DNA of 64,000 nucleotides from a bacterium SCSIO 12741 (GTDB lineage: Bacteria > Bacteroidota > Bacteroidia > Flavobacteriales_G > Salibacteraceae), in assembly GCA_024398055.1 (NCBI GenBank), contig CP073749.1:3658594-3722593 (forward strand). Reading direction: 5' to 3'. A model generated the notes under the pieces. That model did not search any database and was not told the origin of the DNA. It saw only the letters and a program-made list of their open reading frames with translations. This document shows positions 25,476-64,000 of the stretch, piece after piece (the stretch's first letter is position 1; each line of letters starts with the position of its first letter). The translations under genes and the position numbers were made by a program.

Positions 25476-26860
25476 AACTATTTTACCTGCTTATTCCCAT
25501 ATTCCTGTTAACCGCATGTACGTCCACTCAAAAAGTGACTCAACAGCCCGAGGAAATCGTTGATCCTGGACCGGAATGGGTACAGCGCAGGCCAATTGAT
25601 ACGGATTACTACATTGGAATTGGCCGTTCCAACAAAAAAATAAACCCTTCGGACTACGCCCAAATCGCGAAACGCAATGCCTTGCAAGATCTGGTATCGG
25701 AAATAGAAGTGAAGGTGGAATCCAACTCTTTGCTCAAACAACTGGAGACCCAGACTTCTTTTGAGGAGCGATTTCTTCAATCCGTTCGGGTTCAGTCGGC
25801 CGCAACGATCTCAGACTACGAACAAGTGGACCAATGGGAAGATGAGGGCCAGTACTATATTTATTACCGACTCAGCAAAAAGCGCTACCTGGAGCTTAAA
25901 CAACAACGCATCGATCGGGCGGTGAAGCAGGCGCAAAGCCATCGTCAGGATGCCGCAACGGCTAGAAGAAATCAAGAATTGGTTCAATCTTTTCGCAGCC
26001 AGGTATTGGCGTTTAAAGCATTGGAGCCTTTTTTAAACGAGCCCATCATGGTGGATGATCCTCAGACCGGGGAGAAGCAGTATCTCGGAAACGTAGTGAT
26101 GCAAGACATGAAGCAGCTGTTGCGATCCATTAAAATAACCGGCAATCAGAAGGCCATGGAATTGACTTATGGAATCGTTCCAGATCGAGAGCTGACTCAG
26201 GTAAAGGTGACGGGAGAAGGGGAGAAACCCCAAAATCAGGTGCCTTTAATTTATGATTGCAACTTGCTGTATCCAGATCGGGTAAAGGTGGAAACGCGCT
26301 TTGACGGAGTGGCTATGCCAGGTTTTAAAAGGGCCTCCCGAAGAGGAACTGCCCAGCTTGAAGTTCGAATGGATATGCAAGCCTTCTTTGCCAAAGGGGA
26401 TCCCATGTATAAATTAATGATCCGGTCTTTTGACGTTCCTGAATGTCGATTTGATTTAGTGGTTCGTTCCCCTCGGGTTCAATTGAATTTGCAGGAGAAG
26501 AAATTTGGCCAAATGCCGGTTCAAAATACCTCAGGACTACGCTCGGCTTGTCAGAAGTCACTCATCGGAAACGGTATGCAATACGAAGCCGATATCAACA
26601 AGAGCGATATTGTAATCGAAGTACAAGCCGATACACGGGAAGCCGGTGAATTTCAGGGGCTTTATACGGCCATTTTGGAAGGAGAAGCCACCGTTAAATT
26701 AACCAGCACCGGTGAGGTTTTGGTCAAAGAATCCCTCAATGGAATTAAAGGAGTGGACCTCGATTATACCCGGGCTGGGGACAAGGCCTATGATGCCCTC
26801 ATCAAAAAGATTGCCTACGAAGTGATTCCAAGATTGAAGCGGAAGCTTAATGGGAACTAG
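25472..26860 (+). CDS. LPP20-like lipoprotein
   Basis: A 462-residue lipoprotein (LLIPIFLLTACTST) with an LPP20-like N-terminal domain: PEWVQRRPIDTDYYIGIGRS, then KRNALQDLVSEIEVKVES and YYIYYRLSKKRYLELKQQ. This module is found beside CsgG-like proteins in many Bacteroidota and in flagellar/curli-associated loci elsewhere. The second half has two beta domains of unknown type. It starts within the stop of the CsgG-like gene, so the two are translationally coupled and probably act together at the outer membrane. The specific function is unknown. Confidence 0.75.
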   Translation: MKLFYLLIPIFLLTACTSTQKVTQQPEEIVDPGPEWVQRRPIDTDYYIGIGRSNKKINPSDYAQIAKRNALQDLVSEIEVKVESNSLLKQLETQTSFEERFLQSVRVQSAATISDYEQVDQWEDEGQYYIYYRLSKKRYLELKQQRIDRAVKQAQSHRQDAATARRNQELVQSFRSQVLAFKALEPFLNEPIMVDDPQTGEKQYLGNVVMQDMKQLLRSIKITGNQKAMELTYGIVPDRELTQVKVTGEGEKPQNQVPLIYDCNLLYPDRVKVETRFDGVAMPGFKRASRRGTAQLEVRMDMQAFFAKGDPMYKLMIRSFDVPECRFDLVVRSPRVQLNLQEKKFGQMPVQNTSGLRSACQKSLIGNGMQYEADINKSDIVIEVQADTREAGEFQGLYTAILEGEATVKLTSTGEVLVKESLNGIKGVDLDYTRAGDKAYDALIKKIAYEVIPRLKRKLNGN

Positions 26861-26861
26861 T

Positions 26862-26921
26862 GAATCTCCAATCTTCAATCTCCAATCTCGATTCTCAGAT
26901 CTCTCCCGATGGCCATCGGGA
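26862..26921. repeat. Seven-base tandem repeats followed by an 18-bp perfect palindrome
   Basis: Six consecutive 7-mers (GAATCTC, CAATCTT, CAATCTC, CAATCTC, GATTCTC, AGATCTC) fill 26862-26903 directly after the stop of the LPP20-like gene. They are followed by the perfect palindrome TCCCGATGGCCATCGGGA (26904-26921). The region lies between convergent genes and may serve as a bidirectional 3' end. The 7-mers match those flanking the 89-bp element at 36721 and 58632. Confidence 0.7.
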
Positions 26922-35481: not shown

Positions 35482-36648
35482 ATGGAGAGATTGACTATCA
35501 TAGCTTTACTGGTTTTGATGTCTCACCCACTCTTGGCTGTCCGGGAAGTGGTAAACGTAGGCATCTTTTGGGGAAACAGACCTTCCGCATCTCTAATAAC
35601 CATCGATCGGGGAAATTATGATCTGATAGGGGATGGCCAGGTAGTGAAGACCTTAGGAGGAAATCAAACCTTTGTAGCCCGTGTAGAGGGTGAGAAGGTG
35701 CAGTTAACCTCGGGAGGAAAGTCTCTCGGTGCATTTAGAAAAGTGCAACTCAAAAGAAAGGAATGGGGCGCCTGCTTCCGATTCAAGGGGGTGACTCCGA
35801 AAACAGAAAGTCGCACCTACAACGATAACCTTCGCATTACCGCCTACAAAAACCGCTTAAAACTCGTCAACGATGTTTACATCGAGCATTACATTGCCGG
35901 GGTAGTGGAAGCTGAATCGGGAACAAAGGAAACCTTTGAATACTATAAGGTGCAGGCAATTATTGCCAGAACTTATGTACTGAGTAACTTGAACAAGTTT
36001 TCCAATTTCGGATTCAACGTATGCGATCGCGTGAATAGCCAGGTGTACAAAGGAAAAAGTAAAGGAAATCCGGAGATCGTAAGAGCCGTTAATGCCACAC
36101 GAGGATTGGTTTTGGTGGACAGCGATATCAACCTTATTCAGGCCGTATTTCATTCCAATTCCGGTGGTCAAACGGTTAACTCGGAAGATGCCTGGTCGCA
36201 ACCGGTAGGTTACCTAAGATCGGTTTCAGATACCTTTAGCTTGGACATGCCTCACTACCTTTGGCAAACGTCTTTGGAGAAAGAGAAGTGGTTGAACTAC
36301 ATGGCTAAAAAATGGAATGTTTCGCTGAGCGATACTTCAGCCACCGAGCAGCTTTTGAATTACAGTCCAAACATCCGTCAGGCCAATTTGGAGGTTGCTG
36401 GAAAATCCATTCCGCTAAAGACTATTCGCAAAGATTGGAGCTTGAAATCTACCTACTTTACCGTGACTGAATCAGATGGTTATGTGAATATTAGTGGGAA
36501 GGGATACGGCCATGGTGTAGGACTAAGCCAGGAAGGAGCAATGCGTATGGCAGAGCTGGGCTATCCTTACAACAAGATTCTTCATTACTACTACAAAGAC
36601 ACCCACTTGATCCACCTTTCAGCCTTGGATTTCTTTCGGGAAGACTAG
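35482..36648 (+). CDS. SpoIID/LytB domain protein (putative peptidoglycan amidase/transglycosylase)
   Basis: The 388-residue protein has a short signal sequence (LTIIALLVLMSHPLLA) and a SpoIID domain: YIEHYIAGVVEAESGTKETFEYYKVQ region, AIIARTYVLSN, CDRVNSQVYKG, ATRGLVLV, VFHSNSGGQTVNSEDAW, and the C-terminal GKGYGHGVGLSQEGAMRMAE. SpoIID proteins cleave denuded glycan strands; in Bacteroidota they occur widely outside sporulation. The catalytic glutamate is likely in VVEAESG. It follows lpxB by 39 bases but has its own promoter box. Confidence 0.92.
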   Translation: MERLTIIALLVLMSHPLLAVREVVNVGIFWGNRPSASLITIDRGNYDLIGDGQVVKTLGGNQTFVARVEGEKVQLTSGGKSLGAFRKVQLKRKEWGACFRFKGVTPKTESRTYNDNLRITAYKNRLKLVNDVYIEHYIAGVVEAESGTKETFEYYKVQAIIARTYVLSNLNKFSNFGFNVCDRVNSQVYKGKSKGNPEIVRAVNATRGLVLVDSDINLIQAVFHSNSGGQTVNSEDAWSQPVGYLRSVSDTFSLDMPHYLWQTSLEKEKWLNYMAKKWNVSLSDTSATEQLLNYSPNIRQANLEVAGKSIPLKTIRKDWSLKSTYFTVTESDGYVNISGKGYGHGVGLSQEGAMRMAELGYPYNKILHYYYKDTHLIHLSALDFFRED

Positions 36649-36653
36649 GTTTT

Positions 36654-36716
36654 GAATCTTGAATCCTGAATCCTGAATCCTGAATCCTGAATCCTGAACC
36701 TCGAATCTCGAATCTC
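36654..36716 (+). repeat. Nine tandem 7-mers flanking the 89-bp element (copy 1)
   Basis: GAATCTT, five GAATCCT, GAACCTC and two GAATCTC follow one another without gaps just after the SpoIID-like stop. The same 7-mer family flanks copy 2 and occurs at 26862. Confidence 0.85.
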
Positions 36717-36720
36717 CAGA

Positions 36721-36809
36721 TTGATTTAGAGTGGAGGTTCTAATAACAATGCCTCTACCAAGCTAAGAGTACATTTAGAAGGGGGCGTTCAATTCCAAAG
36801 TTCAAGATT
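36721..36809 (+). repeat. 89-bp dispersed element, copy 1
   Basis: This sequence matches 58632-58720 at 85 of 89 positions with no gaps. Both have a conserved 7-pair stem GTGGAGG/CCTCTAC with one G-T pair (element positions 11-17 and 32-38). Two of the four differences fall in the loop. The copy sits between the SpoIID-like gene and comEC. It has no open reading frame. It could be a MITE-like or REP-like element. Confidence 0.85.
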
Positions 36810-36874
36810 ACCTTCGGTGATCGCTTCGATAGTTATCTGAGCTCTGAGTTGGAGATTGAAATTTCAAAATTGTT

Positions 36875-36882
36875 TAGATTTG
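36875..36882 (+). promoter_or_regulatory. -7 box TAGATTTG of comEC
   Basis: TAGATTTG fits TAnnTTTG and ends three bases before the ATG at 36886. TTG occurs 16 and 23 bases upstream (36856 and 36849). A leaderless or near-leaderless transcript is implied. Confidence 0.45.
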
Positions 36883-36885
36883 GGT

Positions 36886-38925
36886 ATGTCGACCATCAAC
36901 CGACACCTTAGAACCAAACCCTTTGTTCGTATTCTGGCTTTTATGATTCCCGGGGTAGTGCTGGGATATGTCTTTGAACACGGGGTGGATTCTACTTGGC
37001 TTGATCCAGGTTATCTTCTTTATGCTTCCTATTTAATTCTCGGTTTAATCGCCATTCCTTTGATCCTAGAGCGCTTTGTAGCCTGGACATTTCGCTTTCG
37101 CTGGTGGTTTGGAACCTTGGTCGCTTCTTGGTTTTTTGTGCTGGGGTTTGCTTTGTTCCTGCAAAATCGTATTCCGCATTGGGAAAATAAGGCCATCGCC
37201 TTCGATGATTTTAAGGGACGTTCGGCTGTATTTGTCATTGATCAGTTTCGCGAAATTGATGTCCATCGCTACAAATACCAGGTGCACTGTCTTTCAGCTG
37301 CTCGTGTTCCCGATGGAGTGGAGGGACTATCTGGTTTTCTGTTTCTCGATCGGTCTTTTTGCCCTGGCGATACGGTCATGACTAAGGGGAGTTTTCAAAA
37401 TCTGAGAAGTATGACCCACCCTTCGCTTCTGGATTTTCGAGAGGTGTTTTACGAAAAAGGATTTTACTTCGATTTCTACGGACATCAGAGCATCCCACTT
37501 GGTTATGGGGCTTTTACATTTGACAATCCCGCCTTTTGGCGTCACAGCTTAGCCCAACGTCTGGAGGGGTTACTCAACGAGGAATCGTCTGCCTTAATTA
37601 AGGCTATGCTTCTTGGTGATAAATCCGGGTTGGATAAAGAACTTCGTGCTTCTTACGCCGCTTCCGGAGCCATGCATGTTTTGGCCGTTTCGGGTCTTCA
37701 TGTGGGGTTGATATTCTTGGTTTTGTTTCAAGTGACAAGCTGGTTTTTTCAAGGAAAAAGTCGGGCCTTATCTTCGCTATTGCCTGTTGCAGGAATTCAA
37801 ATTTACGCCATGCTTACAGGATTTGTGCCCTCGGTTTTTCGGGCATCTTCCATGATCTCGTTGTATGTAATCGGTAAATACCTGCAGCGTCGTGCCGATG
37901 TAATCAATATCATTTGTGGAGCAGCATTTATCATGCTTTTGGTCAATCCAACTCAGCTTTTTCAAGTGTCCTTTCAATTGTCATTTGCCGCACTAACGGG
38001 TATCGTTTGGGTGTTTCCAAAAATTAGGAAGTTGTGGTCGCCAAAGAATCAGGTAACTGCCTACATCTGGGACTTGTTGGCTTTGTCTCTGGCAGCCCAA
38101 TTGGCCACCTTTCCGCTTGGGCTTTATTATTTCCATCAATTTCCCTTTTGGTTCTTGTTATCCAATCTTGTGGTTGTGCCAGGTGCTTTTTTGATCATTA
38201 CTGGGAGCTTGTTGCTACTCGCTGTATCTCCTTTTGAATCCCTTGCTGTTTATGTGGCTTGGTGTATGGAGGTTTTGATTCATACCGTAAATGCACTGGT
38301 CTCCTGGATTGATAGTCTACCACCCGGGGCGATCCAAGGAGTACACATTCAGGCTTGGGACGTGGCCCTGTTGTACTTTCTCATTTGGGCGTTGTTAGAA
38401 ATAGGATTTCAACAAAAGTTCAAACGCGTTTATCCCGCTTTGGCAACAGTTCTCTTGCTTTTTGTGTCTTCGACGTATAGCGAATGGAGCAGGCAGAACA
38501 GGCGAGGAATTTTGGTTTATAATCATACTCGGCCCATGGTTGAAGTTTTTCAAGGCAAGCATTCGGTTGTAATTACCTCAGAAAAGTATACTTCCAGAAT
38601 TGCTTTTGCCCGCCAGGGGTGGGTTGAAATGCAGGGCATTGAAAATACCGTAATTCTACCTCATGATACCAGTTGGAGCAATGGATGGGTTACCCTGAAT
38701 GATGGGTCGGCACAACTGCTGGACGAATTGTGGAACTTGCATCTAACTTCTACCGACGATACTCATGGAATGGATCGAGTGGTTACTTCAGCCAGAAATT
38801 ATTCTATAGCTCAGGGCAGACCAGGGGATTGGCTGTTTTTCGGAAACCCAAAACGGGGGAAACCAATTGATGAAAACCTTGGACATTGGCTTTCAAGAGA
38901 AGGTTATCTTTTGATTGAGAAGTAG
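36886..38925 (+). CDS. comEC: ComEC/Rec2 family DNA-uptake channel protein
   Basis: The 679-residue membrane protein has an N-terminal region with three membrane helices and a soluble OB-like part (DUF4131), then the Competence domain with the signature ALIKAMLLGDKSGLDKELR, SGAMHVLAVSGLHVGLIF and PSVFRASSMISLYV, followed by many membrane helices. It lacks the C-terminal metallo-beta-lactamase domain of Bacillus ComEC; the C-terminus instead has a short beta-rich piece (GILVYNHTRPMVEVF). The ATG at 36886 was preferred to an in-frame TTG at 36856. It ends one base from the convergent tRNA nucleotidyltransferase gene. Confidence 0.93.
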   Translation: MSTINRHLRTKPFVRILAFMIPGVVLGYVFEHGVDSTWLDPGYLLYASYLILGLIAIPLILERFVAWTFRFRWWFGTLVASWFFVLGFALFLQNRIPHWENKAIAFDDFKGRSAVFVIDQFREIDVHRYKYQVHCLSAARVPDGVEGLSGFLFLDRSFCPGDTVMTKGSFQNLRSMTHPSLLDFREVFYEKGFYFDFYGHQSIPLGYGAFTFDNPAFWRHSLAQRLEGLLNEESSALIKAMLLGDKSGLDKELRASYAASGAMHVLAVSGLHVGLIFLVLFQVTSWFFQGKSRALSSLLPVAGIQIYAMLTGFVPSVFRASSMISLYVIGKYLQRRADVINIICGAAFIMLLVNPTQLFQVSFQLSFAALTGIVWVFPKIRKLWSPKNQVTAYIWDLLALSLAAQLATFPLGLYYFHQFPFWFLLSNLVVVPGAFLIITGSLLLLAVSPFESLAVYVAWCMEVLIHTVNALVSWIDSLPPGAIQGVHIQAWDVALLYFLIWALLEIGFQQKFKRVYPALATVLLLFVSSTYSEWSRQNRRGILVYNHTRPMVEVFQGKHSVVITSEKYTSRIAFARQGWVEMQGIENTVILPHDTSWSNGWVTLNDGSAQLLDELWNLHLTSTDDTHGMDRVVTSARNYSIAQGRPGDWLFFGNPKRGKPIDENLGHWLSREGYLLIEK

Positions 38926-58602: not shown

Positions 58603-58606
58603 TTTT

Positions 58607-58627
58607 GAATCTTGAATCTCGAATCTT
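58607..58627 (+). repeat. Three tandem 7-mers left of the 89-bp element (copy 2)
   Basis: GAATCTT, GAATCTC, GAATCTT follow the YhdH stop. They belong to the same 7-mer family as at 36654. Confidence 0.8.
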
Positions 58628-58631
58628 CAGG

Positions 58632-58720
58632 TTGATTTAGAGTGGAGGTTCTAATAACTATTCCTCTACCAAGCAAAGAGTACATTTAGTAGGGGGCGTT
58701 CAATTCCAAAGTTCAAGATT
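58632..58720 (+). repeat. 89-bp dispersed element, copy 2
   Basis: Matches 36721-36809 at 85 of 89 bases without gaps. It lies between convergent genes. The right flank (58721-58762) continues as 7-mers in the opposite sense (GGAGATT, GGAGATT, CAAGATT, CAATCTT, CAGTCTT, CAAGATT), so the unit has loosely inverted simple-repeat ends. Confidence 0.85.
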
Positions 58721-58762
58721 GGAGATTGGAGATTCAAGATTCAATCTTCAGTCTTCAAGATT
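58721..58762 (+). repeat. Six tandem 7-mers right of the 89-bp element (copy 2)
   Basis: GGAGATT, GGAGATT, CAAGATT, CAATCTT, CAGTCTT, CAAGATT. The first three are reverse complements of the left-flank 7-mer family. The tract runs into the 3' end of the exonuclease-GIY-YIG gene. Confidence 0.75.
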
Positions 58763-60923: not shown

Positions 60924-63900
60924 ATGTTACATCAAGCCTATCACAACGGACGAAATTTGCTGCTGGTGTTAGCCTTTATTTTAACAGGCTTTGCACTTCA
61001 GGCGCAATTGACATCTTACGAAGGAATTAACTACCAGGCCATTATTCGAAATGCCGATGGTCAGGTGCTTAGTGGTCAAGGCGTGACTCTTCGGATCACC
61101 ATTTACCAGAAGGGTAAATTAGGCGACGGATACATTGAGCGTCATCAAACAAGCACCAATTTGATGGGATTGGTCGTGCTGAAGGTAGGGGATGGTATTC
61201 CCGAACAAAATCACCTGGACTCCGTTCGATGGGAAGAGGCCAATACGGCTCCTTTTTTCATGAAGGTGGAGCTGGATGAGTCAGGTGGGCAAAACTACCG
61301 GTCGATGGGAGAGTCTGAGCTCTTGTCTGTACCGTATTCCTTTTTTGCCCGGGAAGCTGGTCGTGCCTTAAACGATGAAGATACCAGTACTACCAACGAG
61401 ATTCAAACCCTGGTTTACGATCCATTGGCTAAAACGCTAACCTTAACCGGACCAACTTCCAATGTTATTGATCTGAGCCACTTTCTGGATACCCTGCACA
61501 TTCAACAAATGCGGTTGGATACGATCAAAGATTCGCTGTATCTATTCGATGACCACAACCCTCCGAATGAGTATGGAATTGACATGAGCTACTTTGCCTC
61601 CATGAGTAAAGTGAAAGCAGACAGCATTTTCCTATCGAATAAAATGCGAAGTGATAGTATAGCCATAATAGGGCTTCTTTCAGATTCAACTTCTTTGATG
61701 CGATTGGCTTTAGCGGATACCGCAAACACACTAAGAGTGCTCATCGGGACCCCGGTTCAAACTACAGATACCGCCGGCATGCTCTTCAATTACATTGCTC
61801 GTGGTGATACGTCAGCAATGCTTCAGCGCTACATAGCAAGAGGAGATACCAATGCCATGCTTCAGCGGTATATAGCTCGTGGGGATACAGCCAATATGCT
61901 GCAACGATTAATTGCCCGGGGTGATACGGCTGCGATGCTCCTTAACTACATCGCCAGGGGAGATACAGCAGGTATGTTGCAACGTTATATTGCACGCGGT
62001 GATACCTCTTCAATGCTTCAACCTTACGTAGCTCGAGGCGATACGGCAGACATGCTTCTTAACTACATCGCTCGAGGCGATACAGCTTCCATGCTATTGA
62101 ATTACATCACTCGAGGCGATACAAGCGCAATGCTTCAGAACTATATCTCTCGGGGAGATACAGCTACCATGCTTCAGAATTATATTGGAAGAGGGGATAC
62201 CGCCTCTATGTTGCAGCGCTATATTGCACGTGGCGATACGGCTGCTATGCTTGATCCTTACTTAAGAGCCTTGGATACCAATAATTTGAGTAACCGGATC
62301 AATGTTAATGCTTCCGATATCGCAACTCTTCAAACAACCAAATTGAATGCAGCCGATACTGCGAGCTTGAGTGATCGTATCGATGACAAATTGAACCTGA
62401 GTGATACCGCATCTATGCTTAGCAATTATCTGTTAGAGACAGATACCGCCAGCTTGAGTGACCGCATCGATGATAAATTGAACTTGAGTGATACCGCATC
62501 TATGCTTAGCAATTATCTGTTAGAGTCAGATACGGCCAGCTTGAGTGACCGAATCGATGACAAATTGAACTTGAGCGATACCGCTTCGATGTTGAGTAAG
62601 TACTTGTTAGAGTCAGATACGGCCAGCTTGAGTGACCGAATCGATGACAAATTGAACTTGAGCGATACCGCTTCGATGTTGGGCAAGTACTTATTAGAAA
62701 CGGACACCGCCAGCTTGAGTGATCGCATCGATGACAAATTGAATTTGAGTGATACCGCTTCGATGTTGGGTAAGTACTTGTTAGAGACCGATACTGCGAG
62801 CTTGAGTGATCGTATCGATGACAAATTGAATTTGAGTGATACCGCTTCGATGCTTAGCAAGTACTTGTTGGAGGCAGACACGGCGAGCCTAAGCGACCGA
62901 ATCAACACCTTGGATGCTAAGGTAGATGCCGGAGCCTTTAAGGACAGTAGTGCTACTAACGAAAAGATTGATTCCTTGTACTTGTCTGGCAATGACCTGA
63001 TCACGGTAGAAGGGGGAGTAAATGTGGATACGGTAGACCTTTCGCTATTTAACGGAAACTCCAATCTGGCTGATACGGCAAGTGCTCTTCGTGCTTTGAT
63101 TTCAACTAATGCCTCTGATATTACTAGCCTTCAAAATACCAAATTGAACGCCAGTGATACAGCGAGCTTGAATAACCGGATCAATACCAATGCTTCCGGA
63201 ATTACCACAAACGCTTCAGACATCACCAATCTGCAGAATACAAAGCTAAATGCCACAGATACGGCCAGTTTGAGCGATCGTATAACCACCAACGTAACGA
63301 ACATCACGACGAATGCTTCTGATATTACCAACCTTCAAAACACGAAGTTGAGTGGTACCGATACCGTGAGCTTGAGTAATAGAATCAATACCAATGCTTC
63401 AGGTATCGTGACCAATGCCGGTGACATTACCAATTTGCAAAACACGAAGTTGAGTGGGTCAGATACGGTAAGCTTAAGCAATAGAATTAATACCAATGTT
63501 TCAGAAATTGCGACCAATTCTGGTGATATTACCAATCTGCAAAATACCAAGTTGAGTGGATCGGATACGGTAAGTTTGAGCAATAGAATTAATACCAATG
63601 TATCGGGTATTACGACCAATGCGGGTGATATCACCAATTTACAAAACACCAAGCTGAATGCGACAGATACGGCCAGCCTAAGTAGCCGAATCAACACCAA
63701 TGTAACGGGTGTTGCTGCCAACGCCTCGGATATTACCAACTTGCAAAATTCCAAGCTTAATGCAGCTGATACTGCAAGTTTGAGTAGTCGAATCAATGAT
63801 AAGCTGAACATCAGTGACACGGCGAGCATGCTTGCTCCCTATTTGCGGTCCTCCACCCAAATCGATACTTCTGGTTTAGGAGCAAGAGTGGATGCAAATA

Positions 63901-64000
63901 CTACTGGATTGGCCTCGTTAACCACCAAGCAGATTGCGGATAGCGCGGACTTGGCCAACAAAATTCGTTCGGATTCAACCATTTTGGCCGGTCGATTAGA
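60924..64000 (+). CDS. Giant tandem-repeat surface (fibre-like) protein, C-terminus beyond the window
   Basis: At least 1025 residues. A signal peptide (NLLLVLAFILTGFALQAQ) is followed by an N-terminal domain (YEGINYQAIIRNADGQ ... GESELLSVPYSFFAREAG) often seen at the start of Bacteroidota tail-fibre-like/adhesin proteins. Then come three repeat arrays: twelve 13-residue units (YIARGDTxxMLQR), six 29-residue units (DTASLSDRIDDKLNLSDT ... ), and six 34-residue units (DTASLSNRINTN ... ITNLQNTKLN). The last has hydrophobic residues every seven positions, as in trimeric coiled-coil stalks. The frame is open to the window edge, so the C-terminus (S74 chaperone or T9SS domain would be expected) is unseen. 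Confidence 0.9.
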   Translation, partial: MLHQAYHNGRNLLLVLAFILTGFALQAQLTSYEGINYQAIIRNADGQVLSGQGVTLRITIYQKGKLGDGYIERHQTSTNLMGLVVLKVGDGIPEQNHLDSVRWEEANTAPFFMKVELDESGGQNYRSMGESELLSVPYSFFAREAGRALNDEDTSTTNEIQTLVYDPLAKTLTLTGPTSNVIDLSHFLDTLHIQQMRLDTIKDSLYLFDDHNPPNEYGIDMSYFASMSKVKADSIFLSNKMRSDSIAIIGLLSDSTSLMRLALADTANTLRVLIGTPVQTTDTAGMLFNYIARGDTSAMLQRYIARGDTNAMLQRYIARGDTANMLQRLIARGDTAAMLLNYIARGDTAGMLQRYIARGDTSSMLQPYVARGDTADMLLNYIARGDTASMLLNYITRGDTSAMLQNYISRGDTATMLQNYIGRGDTASMLQRYIARGDTAAMLDPYLRALDTNNLSNRINVNASDIATLQTTKLNAADTASLSDRIDDKLNLSDTASMLSNYLLETDTASLSDRIDDKLNLSDTASMLSNYLLESDTASLSDRIDDKLNLSDTASMLSKYLLESDTASLSDRIDDKLNLSDTASMLGKYLLETDTASLSDRIDDKLNLSDTASMLGKYLLETDTASLSDRIDDKLNLSDTASMLSKYLLEADTASLSDRINTLDAKVDAGAFKDSSATNEKIDSLYLSGNDLITVEGGVNVDTVDLSLFNGNSNLADTASALRALISTNASDITSLQNTKLNASDTASLNNRINTNASGITTNASDITNLQNTKLNATDTASLSDRITTNVTNITTNASDITNLQNTKLSGTDTVSLSNRINTNASGIVTNAGDITNLQNTKLSGSDTVSLSNRINTNVSEIATNSGDITNLQNTKLSGSDTVSLSNRINTNVSGITTNAGDITNLQNTKLNATDTASLSSRINTNVTGVAANASDITNLQNSKLNAADTASLSSRINDKLNISDTASMLAPYLRSSTQIDTSGLGARVDANTTGLASLTTKQIADSADLANKIRSDSTILAGRL
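61791..62258 (+). repeat. 39-bp tandem repeat array (12 copies)
   Basis: Twelve consecutive 39-bp units encode YIARGDTxxMLQR-type 13-mers. Protein sequence is strongly conserved (RGDT in all twelve) while codons differ between copies, which points to old duplication with selection. Confidence 0.9.
62355..62876 (+). repeat. 87-bp tandem repeat array (6 copies)
   Basis: Six units of 87 bp encode the 29-mer starting DTASLSDRIDDKLNLSDT. Copies 3 and 4 are almost identical at DNA level, indicating recent duplication or gene conversion. Confidence 0.9.
63156..63767 (+). repeat. 102-bp tandem repeat array (6 copies)
   Basis: Six units of 102 bp encode a 34-mer beginning DTxSLSxRINTN and containing DITNLQNTKL. 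Hydrophobic residues recur every seven positions, as in a stalk. Confidence 0.88.

Follow-up and report, generated by a model that had tools for sequence, protein, structure and literature searches.

A two-copy intergenic module with its ends in TYSAATC heptamer arrays in the genome of bacterium SCSIO 12741

In the genome of bacterium SCSIO 12741, an intergenic sequence present in two copies (the core) was found to have both ends within units of a degenerate heptamer, TYSAATC; arrays of this heptamer are the more widespread, genome-wide feature. The core is fairly likely to be a passenger module lodged in this genome-wide family of arrays and to have been copied once by recombination from one array to another. 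The window, the whole 64,000-nt stretch of DNA that was analysed, comprises bases 3658594-3722593 of a genome assembled as one contig of 5,103,034 bp, and its features are listed in Table 1.

Table 1. Heptamer arrays, core copies and adjoining modules in the window (positions are those of the window)
Feature	Position	Strand	Description	Basis
Left heptamer array, copy 1	36652..36714	+	Nine units (TTGAATC, CTGAATC and TCGAATC types), 3 nt past the stop codon of the SpoIID-domain gene	Sequence, TRF
Copy 1, shared stretch	36695..36809	+	Left end and right end (TTCAAGATT) are heptamer units	Alignment
Module B variant, ACCTNCGGTGATCGCTNCG...	36810..36860	+	Ends in GATTGAA; occupies the place of the heptamer array of copy 2	
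Left heptamer array, copy 2	58605..58625	+	Three exact TYSAATC units, 2 nt past the stop codon of the acrylyl-CoA reductase family gene	
Copy 2, shared stretch	58606..58720	+		Alignment
Right inverted heptamer array, copy 2	58717..58744	-	Four exact units, to within 3 nt of the stop codon of the convergent exonuclease gene	
Third heptamer array of the window, with module P	26860..26920	+	Array at 26860-26894, P CCCGATGGCCATCGGG at 26905-26920; between convergent genes, without core (locus L131)	

Alignment of the two copies showed that 107 of 115 bases were identical without gaps. The ungapped match of 85 of 89 bases, about 22 kb apart, from which the sequence-only reading had started was reproduced (36721-36809 versus 58632-58720). 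The copies, 93-96% alike, have the same orientation and each is located just 3' of a stop codon, beside unrelated genes: copy 1 between a SpoIID/LytB domain gene and ComEC, and copy 2 between an acrylyl-CoA reductase family gene and an exonuclease gene with a GIY-YIG domain. Stop codons, read on the sequence, close all three forward frames within the first third of the core. The left boundary of the shared stretch falls within a TYSAATC array and the right one at TTCAAGATT; beyond it, a module B variant follows in copy 1 and an inverted heptamer array in copy 2. Since both ends are inside heptamer units, a stretch of about 115 bp that merges into heptamers describes the feature better than an isolated element of 89 bp does. 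Converging arrays flank copy 2 on both sides; copy 1 is bordered by an array on the left only and by module B on the right. The nine tandem 7-mers previously said to flank the element were indeed counted, all of them on the left of copy 1. In the domain search of the flanking genes, a weak T9SS tail match, below the cut-off, was also seen, which would be in line with Bacteroidota. Elsewhere in the window (61767-63818), long tandem repeats of 39, 87, and 102 bases were observed inside one large open frame (60924-63998), which is probably that of a repetitive surface protein.

The whole genome and its relatives were searched for the core, as the sequence-only reading had suggested. With a 141-base query at E up to 10, two copies were found in the 5.1-Mb genome, and the remaining matches were short: they coincided with heptamers or module B or covered pieces no longer than about 35 bases. 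Of 149 genomes including its own, 4 matched at E 0.01, namely its own and three in which 24 to 29 bp matched; on inspection by eye, neither heptamers nor more of the core adjoined these three matches, which were discarded as copies. Among 395 genomes drawn from the class, a match at E 1e-4 was obtained in its own genome alone (0/394 others). No match was detected in the plasmid and phage collections at E 1, and a 19-base signature of the core had none in viral contigs and one in genome_contigs, on a 3-kb contig of another organism, which is about the chance expectation for a collection of that size (by arithmetic); records of its own genome may be left out of the genome_contigs, viral, plasmid, and phage collections. 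The description of a dispersed, lineage-specific intergenic repeat was right in itself.

Both copies can form a stem of 7 pairs, GTGGAGG/CCTCTAC (36731-36758), whose 14-base loop contains two of the four differences in the core (36748 and 36751). These observations, made before, were confirmed; the selection on structure read from them was not, as a stem of 7 or more pairs was present in 70.4% of 1000 dinucleotide shuffles of the core. Four changes spread over 89 bases would miss all 14 stem positions about half the time (by arithmetic), so the pattern of changes is uninformative on selection. The 89-base cores of both copies folded slightly worse than their shuffles on both strands (z +0.37 to +1.13), and the core hairpin is no better than chance. 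A search of Rfam with the region of copy 1 (36500-37000) gave no match up to E 5, and the search of both copies for promoter-like sites and terminator-like sites (a GC-rich stem with a T-run after it) was negative. A structured RNA, one of the earlier suggestions, was rejected on folding, shuffle control, and Rfam (copy 1). Selection on the core as a structured RNA or a regulatory element in its own right is very improbable: the likeness of the two copies, their common orientation, and their position just past the stop codons of unrelated genes would agree with it, but folding no better than shuffles on either strand, the lack of an Rfam match at copy 1 and of a promoter-like site at either copy, and absence from 394 other genomes of the class speak against it, and a recent duplication would leave two similar copies without any selection. 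Absence of the core elsewhere and of conserved folding, which the sequence-only reading itself had set against its proposal, were thus both found for the core.

TYSAATC occurred as 107 doublets in the genome (control, 0) and as 55 triplets, with none in the other 34 genomes of the family; in the class, one, one, and two triplets were found in three further genomes, so that 4 of 149 genomes were positive in all. A looser array scan detected 12 arrays in 464 kb, 4 of them inside the window, versus 1 in the reversed control. TRF analysis of 400 kb gave 20 arrays of period 7, as against 1, 10, and 1 of periods 5, 6, and 8, respectively. In five relatives, it gave 1 period-7 array in 140 kb, 2 in 80, 4 in 80, 1 in 60, and 0 in 40; since four of the five have such arrays, it is the word that distinguishes this genome, not period 7 by itself. 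Autocorrelation across spacers was weak at 7 nt (z 2.4, versus 2.8 and 2.7 at lags 6 and 9).

From 100 of the 107 doublets, 40 clusters were built among the matches listed, and all 40 loci were fetched; genes were called with a home-made gene caller. Among these matches, 36 clusters were placed in a spacer between called genes, 3 overlapped a called gene, and 1 was unplaced. All nine two-strand clusters with exact doublets among the matches listed converged, TYSAATC coming first and the inverted array second. When array starts within 40 nt were counted in 39 of the 40 clusters (L121, inside a gene, was left out), 22 gene ends and 2 gene starts were obtained among the matches listed, and 20 of the 22 had TYSAATC in the sense orientation; relaxing the limits to 60 nt and a lower threshold for genes gave 26 ends, of which 20 were sense and 6 antisense, and 4 starts among the matches listed. 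Because one inverted structure underlies both, the bias toward sense and the convergent layout are not independent. At loci L108, L112, and L123, the stop codon itself was within the array.

These position and orientation rules could mean a putative function in mRNA 3' ends. It was considered whether the converging arrays act in RNA as a hairpin past the stop codon, with the core as its loop, which ends transcription or protects the 3' ends of mRNA. Besides the preference for gene ends, the share of clusters between convergent genes is in line with such a role: the 36 spacer clusters among the matches listed comprised 9 convergent, 9 divergent, and 18 tandem spacers, and the 211 spacers of at least 50 nt sampled in 464 kb comprised 25, 54, and 132, respectively. 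Copy 2 with its heptamer arms also folded strongly (z -5.4), as is to be expected of any inverted repeat; for copy 1 and its flanks, folding was weak (z -1.3). At 11 two-arm loci, however, 435 of 500 sets of swapped arms equalled or exceeded the native set in stability, and stability was unchanged when the arm order was reversed, so there is no sign of arms evolving to match each other. Moreover, a terminator-like site was lacking at either copy, as noted above, and at many loci inspection by eye showed the left arm bordered externally by TTTT and the right arm by AAAA, an arrangement opposite to that of an intrinsic terminator. We regard a role in transcript ends as improbable.

The sequence lodged at the heptamer loci varied from locus to locus and could be the core, module B, module P, or a tandemly repeated module at L124. 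Module B (ACCTNCGGTGATCGCTNCG) had 8 exact matches in the genome and none in 148 others, with more divergent copies in addition. Module P, the palindrome CCCGATNNNNATCGGG, was found at 8 places in the genome, and 31 of 59 other genomes were also positive. Module P was discarded as a link to relatives, for its presence in 32 of 60 genomes shows that it is not particular to heptamer arrays; one genome of the class (G047) had 134 places of CCCGATNNNNATCGGG, versus 0 to 17 in the other 59 genomes searched. At L124 (3057343-3057554 of the genome), converging heptamer arrays enclosed tandem copies of one module (83-nt match, 77%), which may capture module multiplication between heptamers in progress. 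Two near-identical spacers, L115 and L054:5250-5650, contained heptamers and module B and adjoin what we take to be the end of a 5S rRNA gene. Overall, the heptamer loci look like mosaics with heptamers as their joints.

The spacer of copy 1 was compared with that of relatives. Twenty-nine loci with a ComEC relative were fetched, and the 10 in which a SpoIID gene was adjacent were used. By eye, no TYSAATC array was present in the SpoIID-ComEC spacer of any of these ten relatives that keep the gene order, two of which had the same spacer sequence. Measured up to the first in-frame ATG, the ten spacers were 24 to 191 bases long, versus 237 bases here, nearly all of it repeat. Since the ten spacers are without arrays, the repeat material of copy 1 was most likely gained in the lineage of this bacterium.

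Such a gain, together with the convergence of the arms and the presence of two Y1_Tnp-domain genes in the genome, one with module P about 0.5 kb away, would suit a non-autonomous MITE- or REP-like element with heptamer arms, moved in trans by a Y1/RAYT-type transposase of the genome. This we think unlikely, because the core has two copies only, the insert differs from locus to locus, and a target duplication was not seen. Inspection of both copies by eye revealed no target-site duplication, although a short one would be hidden by the edge heptamers. The Y1 genes, furthermore, adjoin other palindromes, and heptamer arrays were absent by eye from 3.2 kb around each. The earlier suggestion of a MITE finds no support for the core; the comparison with REP-like mosaics is fair for the surrounding heptamer arrays. 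By inspection, the core has no GTAG-type tetranucleotide with an imperfect palindrome, and it folds no better than shuffles. Each of the two Y1_Tnp genes, at L103 (3965548-3965757) and L104 (949375-949557), has palindromic repeats of its own, and at L104 the module P beside the gene appears inside the loop of such a palindrome.

Recombination at heptamer joints requires the fewest assumptions, for it covers the boundaries of the core, the variable inserts, and the lineage-specific word. Under the passenger explanation, arrays would gain and lose 7 nt at a time through replication slippage, and dispersed arrays would recombine or template-switch among themselves. One such array-to-array event would have copied the core between the loci 22 kb apart, and arrays would persist past stop codons, where their growth would harm least. 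A function of the core is not needed, and the core is probably a passenger of little consequence. In favour of this explanation we count the two boundaries in heptamers, the inserts that vary by locus, the folding of the core no better than shuffles, the excess of TYSAATC in doublets, triplets, and TRF arrays, the convergence, the gene-end bias, the empty SpoIID-ComEC spacers, and the unmatched arms; against it count the use of a single strain, with which a transposition without traces would also agree, the position and orientation rules if they reflect a function in mRNA 3' ends, the array of copy 1 on the left only, the weak 7-nt autocorrelation, the two Y1 transposase genes, and the z of -5.4 at copy 2.

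As in heptameric long simple sequence repeats, TYSAATC units occur far above chance and mostly outside genes. No paper on TYSAATC-type arrays or the core was found in text searches of the open-access literature. The closest published case is that of the GGGAATC arrays of Xanthomonas, described in a passage of PMC4692102 as degenerate 7-nt units in roughly 180 arrays per genome, mostly intergenic, forming convergent pairs in 70 and 75 cases and lying nearer the end of the upstream gene than the next gene. The TYSAATC arrays are alike in unit length and degeneracy, in number (107 doublets), and in layout, being intergenic, convergent in pairs, and at the end of the upstream gene. They differ in that the unit and its complement have no run of three G; the same passage presents the GGGAATC unit as G-rich and quadruplex-forming. 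Because TYSAATC shares the layout without the G-run, quadruplex formation is not a general reason for a convergent arrangement at gene ends. The passage on GGGAATC also gives no description of modules in or between arrays such as those found here. Slippage at 7 nt is the cause proposed by earlier authors for the heptamer excess of bacteria, as stated in passages of PMC4692102 and PMC4679880.

A second published case is that of TAACTGA heptamer arrays, which a passage of PMC4679880 places in Beggiatoaceae, Cyanobacteria, and five Bacteroidetes as intergenic and patchy, with slippage discussed. TYSAATC arrays are similarly heptameric, intergenic, and patchy, but they favour gene ends and converge, unlike those of the Beggiatoaceae genome, which according to the same passage are mostly just 5' of start codons with one inverted set only. 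REP and BIME sequences with RAYT transposases, outlined in a passage of PMC2817692, are species-specific intergenic mosaics, in which units of opposite orientation are separated by varied sequence. The TYSAATC loci answer to that outline as well; their units, however, are plain heptamers rather than palindromes of the GTAG kind, and arrays were not seen at the two Y1 genes. The TYSAATC arrays thus resemble a published kind of heptamer repeat, and the word itself is particular to the lineage of this bacterium.

Other heptamer words were found in the same family. One genome of another genus (G003; loci L196-L215) had 27 YTTGATC triplets, with none in the other 34 family genomes searched, and two genomes of one genus (G016 and G026; loci L216-L235) had 14 CCTAGCN triplets each, with none in the other 33. 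Three words in three genera of one family open the questions of why the unit is 7 nt, why it lies 3' of stop codons, and why it is convergent. The gene-end preference may extend to G003, in which 6 gene ends and 2 starts were near arrays at 13 loci (60 nt). The orientation rule was not seen in that genome, where 3 ends were sense and 3 antisense and array pairs both converged (L211 and L215) and diverged (L196 and L214). It is conceivable, though we give it little weight, that some lineages of the family write their own 7-nt words (TYSAATC, YTTGATC, and CCTAGCN) into gene ends by an enzyme-driven process rather than by slippage, with the arrays serving as landing or exchange sites that would shuffle modules like the core. 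Further 7-nt words were noticed by eye in spacers of G016. In four other genomes (G045, G049, G074, and G113), the reversed control of the heptamer triplet matched 6 to 11 times each, which hints at still other heptamer words.
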